The notes beneath the pieces are model-generated. The model worked only from the letters and a program-made list of their open reading frames with translations, ran no database searches and was not told the DNA's origin. Below, in pieces: positions 22,514-27,908 of a stretch of DNA of 64,000 bases. The stretch's first letter is position 1, and each line of letters begins with the position of its first letter. The stretch comes from Bacillus sp. WMMC1349 (lineage in GTDB: Bacteria; Bacillota; Bacilli; Bacillales; Bacillaceae): positions 2,152,001-2,216,000 of the forward strand of contig NZ_JABJUQ010000007.1 in assembly GCF_013155385.1 (NCBI RefSeq). Reading direction: 5' to 3'. Position numbers and translations under genes: made by a program.

Positions 22514-22519
22514 AACGTG

Positions 22520-23350
22520 TTGAACACGAGTTTAAAGAAACGATTGACAATGATACTTTTAGTTATGGTGACATTTTTTATGGGTGGCAAAGTCTCACTT
22601 GCTGCTAGCAATGGGACACAAGGAAGTGAAGATGGGTTTTTACATCACTATTTTGTGATGCCTTTTTCAGAGCTCATTAAAGGAATCGGCGAGTTTTTTC
22701 ACGGGAATTATGGACTTGCCGTGATCCTTGTGACCATTATCGTACGGCTACTCGTCTTGCCGCTGTTTGCGAACCAGTTTAAAAAACAGCGAGCAATGCA
22801 GGAAAAAATGGCAGTGGCCAAGCCTGAAATGGATGCGATCCAAAGCAAATTGAAAAAAACAAAAGATCCTGTTAAACAGCGGGAGATTCAACAGGAAATG
22901 ATGATACTTTACAAAAAACATAACATCAATCCACTGGCAATCGGTTGTTTGCCGATGCTCATTCAGCTCCCGATTTTATATGGTTTCTATAATGCGATAC
23001 GTTCGACTCAAGAAATTACTGACCATTCTTTTCTTTGGTTTAATCTCGGACATTCTGATCTGTTCGTATCTTTATGCGCTGGTATGATGTATTTAATCCA
23101 ATTTTATGTTTCGCAAAAATTAAATGTTCAAAATTCAGTACAATCAAACCCAGCAGCCCAACAATCAGCTAAAATTATGGGAATATTTTTCCCGGTGATG
23201 ATGACAATTTTCTCGCTTAACGCACCCGCGGCACTGCCACTTTATTGGATGACCAGCGGATTGTTTCTCACTGTCCAATCCGTTGTGTTCCACCAAGTTT
23301 ACAAAAAAAAGAAGACTTCGCTTCAAACAGCCGAATCAGCTCCTAAGTAA
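22520..23350 (+). CDS. yidC2: Membrane protein insertase YidC2
   Basis: YidC/Oxa1-family insertase, the counterpart of B. subtilis YqjG. The 276-residue protein has an N-terminal signal sequence (about 9-29), then five membrane segments; the conserved arginine of the hydrophilic groove is in VTIIVRLLVLPLF near residue 75, followed by the cytoplasmic helical hairpin (KQRAMQEKMAVAKPEMD). The GTG at 22517 is possible, but the TTG at 22520 is better spaced from AAGGAGGAG. Unlike B. subtilis YqjG as I recall it, the signal sequence has no lipobox cysteine. Expression should depend on MifM. Confidence 0.93.
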   Translation: MNTSLKKRLTMILLVMVTFFMGGKVSLAASNGTQGSEDGFLHHYFVMPFSELIKGIGEFFHGNYGLAVILVTIIVRLLVLPLFANQFKKQRAMQEKMAVAKPEMDAIQSKLKKTKDPVKQREIQQEMMILYKKHNINPLAIGCLPMLIQLPILYGFYNAIRSTQEITDHSFLWFNLGHSDLFVSLCAGMMYLIQFYVSQKLNVQNSVQSNPAAQQSAKIMGIFFPVMMTIFSLNAPAALPLYWMTSGLFLTVQSVVFHQVYKKKKTSLQTAESAPK

Positions 23351-23399: not shown

Positions 23400-23594
23400 T
23401 TAAGATTTTTCATATCGATATACGATAGGCTGCATCATGAATAAACTAAACACAAGCCAAATCAAAACAGTAGACCATTTCAATATCGAATTCCACTCAC
23501 TTGATACCATGCTTACAAAATAAAAAATTGGCAAAATAAATAACAAAATGAATAACAGTTTAGAAGCTGTTGGAGTATTTTTAAAAAAGCGCAT
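23400..23594 (-). pseudogene. Small membrane protein or truncated gene end
   Basis: An ATG at 23594 opens a 64-residue product with two hydrophobic segments (about 12-28 and 37-54), but no ribosome site precedes it. The same frame stays open upstream to about 23665, encoding PTIRFPPFKSFDLFRQL before the methionine. This suggests the C-terminal part of a larger gene cut off at the border of the inserted peptide cassette. Family not recognised. Confidence 0.4.
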
Positions 23595-23638
23595 GAGTTG
23601 TCGAAAAAGATCAAATGATTTAAATGGAGGGAATCGGA

Positions 23639-23707
23639 TTGTTGGAAGAATTGTTTCAAAAGATTATTGATATGACTTTTTTTTACAGTTTTTACATTAG
23701 CTCATAA
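23639..23707 (+). CDS. Possible 22-residue peptide or gene start
   Basis: TTG at 23639 follows GGAGGG (23626-23631) at an ideal distance and opens 22 codons: MLEELFQKIIDM and then a hydrophobic tail. It converges on the HExxH gene, whose stop is 8 bases further. It may be a real small peptide or the first codons of a gene cut at the insertion border. Low support. Confidence 0.25.
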   Translation: MLEELFQKIIDMTFFYSFYISS

Positions 23708-23714
23708 AACAATT

Positions 23715-24545
23715 TTAAAACTTCAAAAATTGACTTATTGACTTATAATCTTGTTTATCTATGAAATTGTTTAACCCTTTTAAAGTTTCAATCCCTCGTT
23801 CTCCAAGGTATTGTTTTTTATTATTAAGTTCTTCAATTGTTTTACACAAAGGTTTATAAAATGATTTTAATTTTTTGAAGTCTCTTAACATATAATAAAA
23901 GTGCATTATGCCCACAGCTACACAAGCAGAATGATAAGCTCTATCTAGTGGTCTTTTTCTCTTGAGGATAGTAGAAGTAACTAAGGCCTCATCTTCTGCA
24001 CATGCCTTTGGATCCGGAAAAACTGAATTGACCATGTCATCTAAAAATAGACTATTGTGAATAAACTCATGATAAATGGCTTCAGCGTAATCTACTACTG
24101 ACCACGTCTTTGGCGGGCTTAACCATGTTAGTCCAATAATACTTGAAACTGAGCCACCGCCAAAACCTTTTTTTCTAAAACATATATAAGATCCAGTAAG
24201 CAATTGAATTAAATCATGAAGATCTGAGTGTAGAATTTTTATTAGTTGAAGTCCTTTTTCTATATTATATCTTATTTCTTCTCTTTCTATTTCATTATAT
24301 AAATGTTTATTTTGCTCAATATCTTTTTCTTCAATCATTCTTCTATTAATTAATTTTTGTATCAACTCATTATCCTGGAATTCAACTTTAATATTCTCCT
24401 TTTCCATTGGGAGGTTAACATTTTGCAAATTTTTCATTACCTTAAAAAAGTTACTTTTACGATTCTCTTTTGTAATTACTTCATTTCTGTCATTTACATA
24501 ATTTATTACAATATCCATATTTGAGATTATGTTCTCTCTATTCAA
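23715..24545 (-). CDS. HExxH-motif putative peptide-modifying enzyme
   Basis: A 276-residue cytoplasmic protein with HEFIH at residues 159-163 in AEAIYHEFIHNSLFLDD, then PDPKACAEDEALVTST near 180. This fits the HEXXH-motif family associated with ribosomally made peptides; I recall that some members act as Fe/alpha-ketoglutarate-dependent peptide hydroxylases rather than proteases, which cannot be checked here. The N-terminal third is lysine- and asparagine-rich and helical. The start is uncertain: TTG 24545 lacks a ribosome site, and ATG 24518 would shorten the protein by nine residues. It lies 26 bases after a 29-codon peptide gene and is AT-rich compared with its surroundings, a sign of transfer. 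Confidence 0.75.
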   Translation of the reverse strand: MNRENIISNMDIVINYVNDRNEVITKENRKSNFFKVMKNLQNVNLPMEKENIKVEFQDNELIQKLINRRMIEEKDIEQNKHLYNEIEREEIRYNIEKGLQLIKILHSDLHDLIQLLTGSYICFRKKGFGGGSVSSIIGLTWLSPPKTWSVVDYAEAIYHEFIHNSLFLDDMVNSVFPDPKACAEDEALVTSTILKRKRPLDRAYHSACVAVGIMHFYYMLRDFKKLKSFYKPLCKTIEELNNKKQYLGERGIETLKGLNNFIDKQDYKSISQFLKF

Positions 24546-24571
24546 AAAATATAATTCATATTTTGATTTAG

Positions 24572-24661
24572 TTAATACATTATTCTAAGTGGTCCAACCA
24601 TTTCATCCGCAAAGTGATTTTTTGAAAAATTCTCAATATTGTCTTTAATCTTTTCCTTCAT
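24572..24661 (-). CDS. 29-residue putative RiPP precursor peptide
   Basis: ATG at 24661 has a perfect GGAGGT ribosome site (24674-24669) seven bases away and opens 29 codons ending with TAA at 24572. The peptide has a charged, lysine-rich first half (MKEKIKDNIENFSKN) and a second half HFADEMVGPLRIMY. No signal peptide. It directly precedes the HExxH gene on the same strand and faces a divergent MFS gene, so a modified exported peptide is the natural reading. I know no close relative; function is inferred from context only. Confidence 0.65.
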   Translation of the reverse strand: MKEKIKDNIENFSKNHFADEMVGPLRIMY

Positions 24662-24692
24662 TGAAATCACCTCCTATTTTATGTTAATTTAT

Positions 24693-24721
24693 AATATATC
24701 AAAATTTTATTGAATGCTCAA
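24693..24721 (-). promoter_or_regulatory. Candidate promoter of the peptide operon
   Basis: TTGAGC (24721-24716) and TATATT (24698-24693) are 17 bases apart on the minus strand, about 30 bases before the peptide start codon. Confidence 0.5.
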
Positions 24722-24756
24722 CTAACTTTAACCATTTTTTTAAAAAGGTGGAATAG

Positions 24757-25932
24757 TTGTTAATGAAAAATAAATCATTTTATGCCCTCTTTACTGGAAA
24801 CTTTCTAGCTCAATTAGGCGATTCCTTTTATATCATTGCTTTAATCTCTTTCATTTATAATCAAACTGGTTCTGCTACTATTTCTGCTGTCATACCGGTC
24901 CTAAGGGTTATGGCCCAAGTCTTAAGTGGATTATTAACCCCATTTTTAATAGACCAATTTCCCTTAAAAGCTTTACTAGTAAGCTCTCAAGCATGCCAAA
25001 CCAGTATTCTTTTACTTTTAACAATGGCAACGAACTCTGTTTCACTTCTGTTGATATTAACTTTTATCATATCCTTTTTTGATGGTTGGATTAAGCCCTG
25101 TAGAAATTCGTTAATTCCATCACTTGTTCCTAAAAGTCAAATCTTTAAAGCAAACAGTTTTATCAACAGTTTTGATCAAGTGATTCAGCTTATCGGATGG
25201 TCAACGGGTGGCTTGTTCATTGTATATTTTGGAGAAGTAGAAGTCTTATTGGCGACGGTAAGTTTATTTTTAATCTCAACACTTTTATTATCTGTCATAA
25301 AGACTCGATCAACGTTAGAAAAAAACAAAAAAGTAAAAGAAGCAAAACTAAAAAAGTTCCTTTCCGGTTGGTTACTAATTTGGAACAATAAAGTCTTAAA
25401 AACAATCGTTGCTATGGACATCATTGAAACCTTTGCTGGATCAATTTGGATAGGATCTATCATTCTCGTTTTTGTAAAGGAAAATCTTCATCAAAGTGAA
25501 TCATGGTGGGGATTTATTAATGCAACGAACTGTGGTGGGATGATACTTGGAAGTTTGGTTGCTTTGTTGTTTTCTAAAAAAATGGATCATAAATTACGAG
25601 CAACTATCTTCGCCTCTTCTTTATCCGTTTGTATTTTAACAACGCTTTTTGCTATTAACACAAACCCGTGGTTCGCGCTCGGCATTTCCTTATTGATGGG
25701 AATTCCTTATCAAATTCGAGATATTACTCAACAAACTTTTTTTCAAACAAGCGTTTCATATACTGAGCTTCCTAAAGTATATTCAGTTCATGGAATTTTA
25801 AACTATTCAGCATTTGGTTTGTCTGTTTTGATGATGGGATTTATATCGGATTACTTTGGTGTACAGAAGGTTTATATTGTTGCCAGCTTTCTTTATGGAT
25901 TATCGGCTCTTATGACAAGGTTTTTAAAATGA
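24757..25932 (+). CDS. MFS transporter beside peptide cassette
   Basis: A 391-residue major facilitator protein with about twelve hydrophobic helices; the opening FYALFTGNFLAQLGDSFYI is typical of MFS exporters of the MFS_3 type that move drugs, macrolides or peptides. TTG 24757 or ATG 24763 may start it, both after AAAGGTGG. It is transcribed away from the peptide gene with 95 bases between them, and could export the modified peptide or give self-protection. AT-rich like the HExxH gene. Confidence 0.8.
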   Translation: MLMKNKSFYALFTGNFLAQLGDSFYIIALISFIYNQTGSATISAVIPVLRVMAQVLSGLLTPFLIDQFPLKALLVSSQACQTSILLLLTMATNSVSLLLILTFIISFFDGWIKPCRNSLIPSLVPKSQIFKANSFINSFDQVIQLIGWSTGGLFIVYFGEVEVLLATVSLFLISTLLLSVIKTRSTLEKNKKVKEAKLKKFLSGWLLIWNNKVLKTIVAMDIIETFAGSIWIGSIILVFVKENLHQSESWWGFINATNCGGMILGSLVALLFSKKMDHKLRATIFASSLSVCILTTLFAINTNPWFALGISLLMGIPYQIRDITQQTFFQTSVSYTELPKVYSVHGILNYSAFGLSVLMMGFISDYFGVQKVYIVASFLYGLSALMTRFLK

Positions 25933-25990
25933 ATAGATCAAGAAGATATCACTAGCAATGCATTAATTTTCGTTCTTTTTATGTTCATAC

Positions 25991-26253
25991 AAAAAAAAGT
26001 CCTTTACAATGGAAGTACAGGTGGTTCCTGTCCAAATTCAAAAGTAAAGGATATCTGATATGAACAAGAATACACTATTTCAATCATGTGATAATGGGTA
26101 TCACCATTAAGTATTGGAAAACTTTCTGAACAAGTTAAGGAACATAAACAGGATAATTACACAAAGAAACTTACGACACTTTCTTATATTAAGTTTCTAC
26201 TTTTTGCTCACCTGCATGAAAGTGAGCGTCTACAAGCCTTGAGTAATGAATAA
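25991..26253 (+). mobile_element. Remnant of an IS4-type transposase gene
   Basis: From ATG 26060 the frame breaks after about 15 codons. A second frame reads GKLSEQVKEHKQDNYTKKL, followed by TTLSYIKFLLFAHLHESER and a stop at 26251-26253. This matches in style the N-terminal DUF4372 region of IS4-family transposases. The rest of the gene is gone. The bases before it (25991-26059) probably include the left end of the element. Confidence 0.6.
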
Positions 26254-26511
26254 TAAAAACGTGATCATCAAAAGTTACTTCCGCAGAGACCGACTGAAAA
26301 GGAGTAGTAAAGGAAGCGCTAACTTCTTTTTTAACATTTTGAGATATTTATAATCTTACAAACATAAAATGGGTTTCCAACCATTTTAACTCAATAAAGG
26401 GGAATTAGGGAGAACTTCATTTAAGTGTAATCGCAGAATACTCGAGGTTTTAGAATAAATGAAATTTTTTCATATATCGGGGCTGTTACGCCCCGATTTC
26501 TCTTACTGCCG
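26254..26511. other. Gene-free stretch after the IS4 remnant
   Basis: No supported gene. A few codons near 26410-26450 (GELHLSVIAEYSRF then stop) could be the last codons of the deleted transposase, which would make the whole 25991-26455 stretch an internally deleted element. A T-rich GC stem at 26480-26502 (CGGGGC and GCCCCG) probably ends the yqjE transcript. Confidence 0.4.
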
Positions 26512-27630
26512 TTATGACCGTTTTGCTGCTTCCTCAATAATCGCAATCACCATTTCTGCTGTTTTAGAAAGCTCTTCAATTGGCATTTTTTCATTTTTTG
26601 TATGAATTTGTTCATATCCGACTGCAAGATTGACTGTCGGAATGCCATGACCAGCAATAATATTAGCATCACTACCACCGCCACTAGTGAGCAACTCAGA
26701 CGGCCGGCCAATTTTTTCTGCAGCTTTTTTGGCGATCTCTACCACAAGATCTCCGTCTTGGTAGCGATAGCCCGGATACATAACCTCTATACTTACCTCC
26801 GCCTTACCGCCCATTTCAGCAGCTGCTGCTTCAAAAGCATCCTTCATTTTTTCGGTTTGCTTCTCCATTTTTTCAGGATCAAGTGAACGAGCTTCCGCTA
26901 ATATTTCAACATGATCACAGACGATATTCGTTTGAGTTCCGCCTTCAAAGCGACCGATATTTGCCGTTGTTTCTTTATCAATACGGCCAAGCGGCATTTT
27001 TGTGATAGCTTTTGCAGCCATTGTAATCGCAGAAACGCCTTTTTCTGGCTCAACTCCAGCATGAGCAGTTTTTCCGTAAACAGAAGCTTTTACTTTGGCT
27101 TGTGTTGGTGCAGCCACAATAATTTGTCCGACCTTTCCGTCAGAATCAAGGGCATAGCCATATTTCGCTTTAATGAGCGCACGGTCTAAAGCTTTTGCAC
27201 CAACAAGGCCTGACTCTTCACCAACTGTAATGATAAACTGAATCGTACCGTGTGGAATTTTCTTTTCTTTTAGGACTCTGATTGCTTCAAACATCGCTGC
27301 CAGACCTGTTTTGTCATCTGCTCCTAAAATCGTTGTGCCATCTGTTTTGATATAGCCGTCTTCAATCACTGGTTTTACACCTTTGCCTGGTACAACTGTA
27401 TCCATATGTGAAGTAAAGTAAATCGTATCAGCTTCCTTTGTACCTGGAAGTGTACAAATAAGATTGCCGGCTCCGTGACCAGTGACAGCCGCACTATCAT
27501 CCTCATAGACATCAAGTCCGAGAGCCGTAAATTTTTCTTTCAGCACGTTGCAGATCTCTGCTTCGTATTTTGTTTCTGAATCAATTTGTACAAGTTCTAA
27601 AAATTCTTCCAATAAACGTTTTTCATTCAT
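26512..27630 (-). CDS. yqjE: M20-family tripeptidase-like peptidase (YqjE)
   Basis: Zinc-dependent aminotripeptidase-like enzyme of the M20/PepT group. The 372-residue cytoplasmic protein has FTSHMDTVVPGKGVKP near residue 75, ILGADDKTGLAA near 103, TVGEESGLVGA near 138, and LTSGGGSDANI near 325, the metal and catalytic positions of the family. The start at 27630 follows GAGGGAAT and gives the family N-terminus (MNEKRLLEEFLELV); the longer reading adds an unlikely hydrophobic tail. In B. subtilis it lies near yidC2, as here, apart from the inserted peptide cassette. Confidence 0.9.
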   Translation of the reverse strand: MNEKRLLEEFLELVQIDSETKYEAEICNVLKEKFTALGLDVYEDDSAAVTGHGAGNLICTLPGTKEADTIYFTSHMDTVVPGKGVKPVIEDGYIKTDGTTILGADDKTGLAAMFEAIRVLKEKKIPHGTIQFIITVGEESGLVGAKALDRALIKAKYGYALDSDGKVGQIIVAAPTQAKVKASVYGKTAHAGVEPEKGVSAITMAAKAITKMPLGRIDKETTANIGRFEGGTQTNIVCDHVEILAEARSLDPEKMEKQTEKMKDAFEAAAAEMGGKAEVSIEVMYPGYRYQDGDLVVEIAKKAAEKIGRPSELLTSGGGSDANIIAGHGIPTVNLAVGYEQIHTKNEKMPIEELSKTAEMVIAIIEEAAKRS

Positions 27631-27908
27631 GTTGATTCCCTCCAATTTCAAAGCGATATATGCTAGCAAACACAATATGAGATATCCTTGCAATAGGATT
27701 CGAATGTGGAACGATAAAAACTTTTCGCTGATTCATTATGTAAAAATATCAAATCCCCAGAACAAGGACATCCGTAAAATAATGATCTTAATTAATGATA
27801 GCACAACAACTTGAAAACTCACACTATCAGGCCGGAAAAAGCTTGTCTACATAAGAAAATCAAGCTAAAATGATAGGTAGACGAATTTATTAAGCAGAGG
27901 TGAAAAAC

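Follow-up and report, generated by a model that had tools for sequence, protein, structure and literature searches.

We analysed a locus in a 64,000 nucleotide stretch of the genome of Bacillus sp. WMMC1349 (assembly GCF_013155385.1, contig NZ_JABJUQ010000007.1, positions 2,152,001 to 2,216,000 of the forward strand), the whole of which is referred to here as the window. The locus contains a 29-codon peptide gene, a gene for an HExxH protein and a divergent gene for a transporter of the major facilitator superfamily (MFS), and an earlier note made from the letters alone had proposed it as a candidate system for a ribosomally synthesized and post-translationally modified peptide (RiPP). We consider it likely that the locus was acquired horizontally, belongs to a mobile family of RiPP cassettes and has been damaged, probably in recent times. 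The family of the enzyme, a conserved leader and core in small open reading frames (ORFs) of its relatives, the linkage of the two genes, a shorter junction between them in the window and an empty site in the nearest relative were observed directly. The coordinates of the features are collected in Table 1.

Precursor and enzyme families in related loci

As a test of its idea the earlier note had asked whether HExxH homologues of other Firmicutes are accompanied by a conserved small ORF, and one was present at 15 of 15 close loci. Close Firmicute loci were counted when they included the 5' flank of the enzyme gene (L002-L014, L018 and L077), and each had, on the strand of the enzyme and upstream of it, a small ORF with a shared leader and core. 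The leader followed the pattern NIxx[YF]xxx[HY] (RI in L006) and the core was M[QKM][IL]H at every counted locus, as in the Anoxybacillus example MTEKHVRNIKRYVDHYLKGNAQMSVVVQPLRMQIHLDK. The 15 small ORFs represent 13 distinct sequences, two of them one residue apart, and the ORF at L005 was counted with an uncertain start. Left out were loci with the 5' half of the enzyme outside the locus (L015, L016, L017 and L019), fragments with no motif ORF (L027, L028 and L029) and loci with precursors identical to those of counted loci (L022-L025, L031, L057 and L058); L032 and L030 are one and the same place.

Of all 22 loci examined besides the window, 17 have the MxIH core, those without it being L067, L020, L030, L075 and L076, and the core His was kept at 17 of the 19 loci having a recognisable precursor. 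Some precursors carry more than one core. The Cohnella precursor has two, each LLKMKIHE, and in another family of the class one genome (G632) has the core RMALHD and a second (G704) has a precursor, P0006, with a ribosome site and eight tandem LRMAI units, seven of them being MAIH. Three weak plasmid matches to this tandem precursor were read as unrelated repeats. The pattern M[QKMA][IL]H, which was set after the ORFs had been viewed, occurred in 13 of 762 ORFs of 30-80 amino acids (11 loci) and 11 of the 13 were the enzyme-adjacent ORF. When six precursors were scanned against NCBIfam no model matched.

A precursor profile (A2) matched 7 of 12 enzyme-bearing genomes, once each and beside the enzyme; because all seven precursors are identical to A2 rows this result shows only the absence of a second copy. 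The genomes missed were G632 and G704 with their divergent precursors, G319 and G340 with enzyme fragments, and G148 with distant tandem enzymes. Given the shared leader and core, the linkage to the enzyme and the profile ranking of the window peptide described below, the RiPP idea therefore holds for the family: a precursor with a conserved leader and core lies beside a modifying enzyme, and it is the core that the window peptide does not share.

Two loci carry divergent versions. The precursor of phage SPbetaL1 (L067) keeps the family leader and has the core VMILK with no His. In the Bacteroidota genus Neolewinella (L020, 5439-6543) a related enzyme follows an upstream ORF with the leader-like SIERYTILH and with PLVMKIA, a possible distant precursor. 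At L030 (1000-3175) we observed two tandem HExxH-type enzymes after two near-identical 49-residue small ORFs (MSLNELLNQVSQEITMDDVDN...), which are possibly another precursor family. Separately, the S. aureus plasmid pPH1-1 (L002, 5872-7795) carries two different tandem HExxH enzymes and one recognised precursor.

The HExxH gene has a TTG start and, as the earlier note had described, lies 26 bases past the peptide gene and encodes HEFIH at residues 159-163. The window protein was assigned by NCBIfam scan to TIGR04267, the alpha-ketoglutarate (aKG)-HExxH-type peptide beta-hydroxylase, scoring 47.7 bits against the curated cut-off of 40, which agrees with the note's link to RiPP-associated Fe/alpha-ketoglutarate enzymes. 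This was its sole NCBIfam match at E up to 1. The cut-off was also passed by 10 of 10 relatives scored singly (42.6-55 bits), and the phage SPbetaL1 enzyme reached 58.2 bits. In a 12-row alignment (A3) of the window enzyme and 11 relatives with 41-52% identity to it, all 12 members matched TIGR04267 at E<=0.001. H159, E160 and H163 of the HExxH metal-binding motif were invariant in all 12 rows, window included, as were R198, D201, H205 and H215. Clear similarity to an unrelated peptidase family had been named as a finding that would refute the proposal; no Pfam family fits the window enzyme, and no peptidase family was among its Pfam matches at E up to 1. The best PHROGs match had an E of only 0.11. 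The window HExxH protein belongs to the aKG-HExxH peptide beta-hydroxylase family, and by analogy with characterised members the enzymes of the window family may hydroxylate their substrates.

The peptide and the shortened junction in the window

The 29-codon gene and its ribosome site were found where the earlier note had placed them. A profile of 11 relatives, with the window excluded and the alignment covering leader positions 1-20 only, ranked the window peptide first of the 1248 window ORFs of at least 15 amino acids (E 1.8e-7, next 0.097). A chance ORF was ruled out by this ranking and by a motif background of 2 in 751 other ORFs. We also considered whether the peptide could be a frameshifted N-terminus of the enzyme, whose frame is open upstream, and rejected this because the relatives keep two separate genes.

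The Met-x-Ile/Leu-His core was not found in the window peptide, which ends PLRIMY. The claim that it is a RiPP precursor therefore stands in part: it belongs to a family with leader and core, and it is itself not complete, with the core His missing. The 'second half' that the note had quoted (HFADEMVGPLRIMY) consists of the last part of the leader followed by a truncated core. No second precursor was found elsewhere in the source genome, where the next match was merely E 0.94, and the window peptide had no match among plasmids. The genus group has 44 genomes with the 4.5 Mb source genome counted, and in the remaining 43 the precursor profile matched nothing at E<=0.01 and the enzyme was likewise missing at E<=0.001.

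The junction between precursor and enzyme was compared with that of 12 relatives (L003 and L018 were excluded as the same stretch as L011, and the phage and L059 were measured additionally). In relatives the junction contains the remainder of the core, a ribosome site, a start codon and, in most cases, a hairpin. The gap between the genes was 58-86 bp, except at L008 with 338 bp, and contained a stem-loop with a fold z of -2.1 to -7.6 in 11 of the 12 (the first 110 bases alone being folded for L008) and of -1.1 in L002. All 12 have a G-rich ribosome-site-like stretch before the enzyme, which starts with ATG in 10 and TTG in L011, while L013 shows ATG behind aaggaggg. From the core Met to the conserved Leu of the enzyme the distance was 114-171 bp in 11 relatives, 407 bp in L008, 140 bp in the phage and 466 bp in L059. 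The corresponding distance in the window, counted from the codon after PLR, was 38 bp as compared to at least 114 bp in all 14 relatives, a shortfall of about 76-133 bp against 12 of the 14 and a larger one against the two long ones.

The enzyme frame of the window is open for 13 codons upstream of the TTG (NNVLTKSKYELYF) and resembles there the N-termini of relatives, for example Priestia MVLTETKMILPF. No ATG, GTG or TTG and no ribosome site was found in these 13 codons, so a ribosome site with a start codon before the enzyme is missing from the window, as is the usual hairpin. The TTG called as the enzyme start is the codon of a Leu invariant in A3. In the remainder of the protein the window enzyme deviates at 2 of the 50 columns invariant in the other 11 rows, none of them in HExxH (the others deviate at 0-7). 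It is most likely that the window copy is damaged, having lost the end of the peptide core and the start of the enzyme gene. The loss would be expected to inactivate the system in the window, and the intact enzyme frame without decay suggests that it was recent.

The AT-rich island, the presumed exporter and the spread of the family

The block holding these genes is AT-rich, as the earlier note had said, with 30.7% GC across 23573-26473 as compared to 38.5% for the whole window. The nearest available relative (G006, locus L053) has DNA identities of 95.8% and 94.3% to the window on the two flanks and an empty site in place of the block, which is also missing from three further members of the genus that were compared. 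The 'possibly truncated membrane gene' at the edge proved to be shorter than its counterpart in this relative, and the IS4 remnant was borne out by 77.6% identity to an Alkalihalophilus plasmid stretch annotated as IS4 family transposase. One flank of the block is formed by a 60KD_IMP-family gene; the other (26512-27693) holds what we take to be an M20-peptidase-like gene, named by reading its sequence only. Promoter-like sites in the island were not in excess (15, shuffle mean 13.3), and a scan of the island for terminator-like sites found none.

Table 1. Features of the cassette and its surroundings (positions in the window unless another locus is given)
Feature	Locus	Position	Strand	Remarks
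Truncated precursor gene	window	24572..24661	-	29 codons; leader MKEKIKDNIENFSKNHF, then ADEMVGPLRIMY; without the conserved MxIH core
Precursor ribosome binding site	window	24668..24675	-	AGGAGGTG; directly upstream of the peptide ORF
Junction	window	24546..24583	-	38 bp between PLR and the conserved Leu of the enzyme
aKG-HExxH enzyme ORF	window	23715..24545	-	276 aa counted from the TTG; upstream the frame stays open as far as 24584, with no ordinary start codon
MFS transporter, presumed exporter	window	24757..25932	+	divergent from precursor; Pfam MFS_1 E 7.9e-26
AT-rich island	window	23573..26473	.	about 2.9 kb; not in nearest relative (G006, L053)
Shortened membrane gene, left edge of island	window	23400..23594	-	64 aa vs 99 aa in G006, which has no island
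IS4-family transposase remnant, right part of block	window	25990..26169	+	180 bp
60KD_IMP-family gene, flank of block	window	22517-23350		Pfam
Tandem-core precursor	L065	7852-8229		GPLRMAIHDQSEPVT type units; divergent from enzyme, directly before MFS gene

The opposite-strand gene was verified as an MFS gene, and MFS genes were also found in 14 of the 19 loci L002-L020 and in L077, L065 and L066. They were not seen in L011, L016, L017, L018 and L020, of which L016-L018 contain only part of the enzyme, nor within 6 kb in phage SPbetaL1, and in L003 and L013 the gene is split in two pieces. MFS proteins from the window, L009, L065 and L066 were scanned, and the best NCBIfam model for each of the four was the ryptide exporter NF041056. 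The MFS protein may export the product of the cassette.

Relatives of the enzyme were found on Staphylococcus and Cytobacillus plasmids and in Laceyella, Priestia, Geobacillus, Anoxybacillus, Peribacillus, Cytobacillus, Cohnella, Exiguobacterium and others. B. subtilis phage SPbetaL1 was the sole match in the phage collection, and a scan of viral contigs found no relative. In the phage record (L067, OQ921341.1, 5744-6828) precursor and aKG-HExxH enzyme are both annotated as hypothetical. The enzyme is sparse, occurring in 9 of 397 genomes of the order (E 1e-20), 7 of 398 of the class (1e-20) and 1 of 398 of a phylum sample (1e-15), samples that overlap and each count the source genome; it was present in 2 of 39 genomes of the family to which G704 belongs. 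IS6 transposase and recombinase genes neighbour the cassettes of some relatives. The plasmids, these neighbours, the phage and the transporter suggest that the product may be a mobile antagonistic or signalling peptide.

Other genes recur near the cassettes. Proteins with HTH and TPR regions were seen in L007 (800-2050), L012 (4225-5478) and L014 (614-1927), which in our own reading resemble peptide-sensing regulators, and a small GerE-type HTH gene lies near the cassette in L007 and L012. A Cys-rich protein is encoded beside the cassette in L003 (4619-5530), L010 (6811-7688), L011 (3705-4616), L018 (4738-5649) and L059 (179-1036); the L003 copy is weakly DUF3109-like, under the cut-off, and the L059 copy, without a Pfam match, was grouped by eye. 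An LLM-class oxidoreductase was seen in L003, L010, L015 and L019. The Cys-rich protein and the oxidoreductase are possible extra tailoring genes.

Alternative explanations, known systems and proposed mechanism

Several observations weigh against reading the locus as a damaged member of such a family. The core His is not universal, SPbetaL1 having MILK and the Bacteroidota locus MKIA, the tandem precursor of G704 lacks the leader pattern, and an ORF of this kind is missing at three more distant enzyme loci (L030 and the actinobacterial plasmid loci L075 and L076). Nor is the hairpin present throughout, as the phage genes are 5 nt apart and the fold of L002 is weak at the z given above. A search of solved structures by sequence returned no relative at E up to 1, and the MFS proteins scored 180-193 bits (window 186.8) on NF041056, far under its cut-off of 575. 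Within the window the enzyme frame is fully open, as for a gene still in use, and a single genome of the species was available, so that the junction could be an assembly error.

It is unlikely that the window copy is a working variant with PLRIMY as its true core and the enzyme made by re-initiation at the TTG at 24545. The open enzyme frame, the few deviations at conserved columns, the variation of the core in the family (the phage MILK) and the short distance from stop to TTG would fit such a variant. However, the TTG has no ribosome site in front of it, the His and later core residues are missing and the spacing between core and enzyme is at least 76 bp shorter than in all 14 measured relatives. 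In addition the TTG encodes the Leu invariant in A3, and a start there would therefore lose conserved N-terminal residues. That the cassette is intact in the living strain, with the short junction arising as a sequencing or assembly error, we regard as very improbable. The junction is known from one assembly, and the remainder of the enzyme shows no decay; the window is nevertheless internal to a contig that is at least 3.9 Mb long, and the genome holds no second copy of enzyme or precursor that could have collapsed. An ordinary zinc metallopeptidase, acting in processing or immunity with the small ORF as its substrate or regulator and no oxidation, also seems improbable as an account of the HExxH protein. 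HExxH is the zincin motif too, and the aKG-HExxH enzyme PflC hydrolyses a truncated substrate with several metals (PMC12636437). A peptidase is difficult to reconcile with the lack of any Pfam peptidase family at E up to 1, with aKG-HExxH as the only NCBIfam match and above its cut-off, and with a conserved core, once in tandem, that suits a RiPP precursor.

The enzyme kind is already known. Hydroxylation or oxidative cleavage of RiPP precursors has been published for aKG-HExxH enzymes (PMC12636437, PMC13060819); PflC and PosC hydroxylate consecutive Gln and, depending on the leader, also cut the backbone at ARMD (PMC12636437). As in the Pseudomonas pfl and pos systems, in the present cassettes a stand-alone aKG-HExxH enzyme would act near the C-terminus of a leader-bearing precursor, and the cluster has no protease gene; the pfl cluster has transporters as well (PMC12636437). 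The pfl and pos clusters differ in their NHLP-type leader and Gln-rich plus ARMD core, the present cassettes having another leader, an MxIH core and an MFS gene, and in an MNIO-nitroreductase partner, MNIO genes not having been searched for in the present cassettes. The pes (nitrilobacillin) system of Peribacillus shares Bacillus-related hosts and an aKG-HExxH enzyme, PesO, which hydroxylates a precursor Pro (PMC13060819). It differs in its R(V/T)DN core and in its MNIO, asparagine-synthetase-like nitrile synthetase and M16 peptidases, partners that were not searched for here. ChlBH (Morishita 2024, known via citing papers) likewise has an HExxH domain beta-hydroxylating Asp and His; it is a radical SAM/aKG-HExxH fusion whereas the present enzyme is stand-alone. 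The ryptide system is represented here by its MFS exporter model, and radical SAM genes were not searched for. Literature searches, from which subscription journals mostly fell outside so that they are weak evidence of absence, brought up no description that we recognised as this precursor family. The precursor family, its tandem version and the MFS pairing are apparently undescribed.

We propose that in intact members the ribosome would make a precursor, about 36-76 residues long or 125 for the tandem-core form, whose N-terminal leader, mostly NIxx[YF]xxx[HY], may dock on the stand-alone Fe/alpha-ketoglutarate HExxH enzyme. The enzyme would then oxidise, most likely by beta-hydroxylation, one residue in the short core, which has the general form Mx[IL]H and in many cases reads PLRMQIH. 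The core His is the first candidate target, since 17 of the 19 loci with a recognisable precursor retain it and His is a reported target; given the His-less phage core, the Met or next positions are also considered. The MFS protein would export the product, probably once a housekeeping protease has removed the leader, and the hairpin that most members have between the two genes probably serves to maintain an excess of precursor transcripts. Compared with the other members, the window lacks the DNA that runs from the end of the core through the hairpin and ribosome site to the start of the enzyme. The core His is therefore absent from the peptide, and any enzyme that is still made would be started late and weakly.

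On balance we lean towards an undescribed RiPP class in which a stand-alone aKG-HExxH enzyme has as its substrate an Mx[IL]H core, in many cases PLRMQIH, oxidising the core His or triggering cleavage adjacent to it. Its precursors would have one, two or eight units, plasmids and an SPbeta phage would have carried it through the Bacilli, and it would yield short exported peptides that in some hosts may be controlled by peptide-sensing TPR regulators. The reactions of aKG-HExxH enzymes are described as not predictable at present (PMC13060819). The chief use of the window copy is to illustrate decay. The family itself is minimal and has an obvious core, and since nature offers precursors of one, two and eight units as well as a phage variant that lacks the His, it makes the oxidised residue directly testable.
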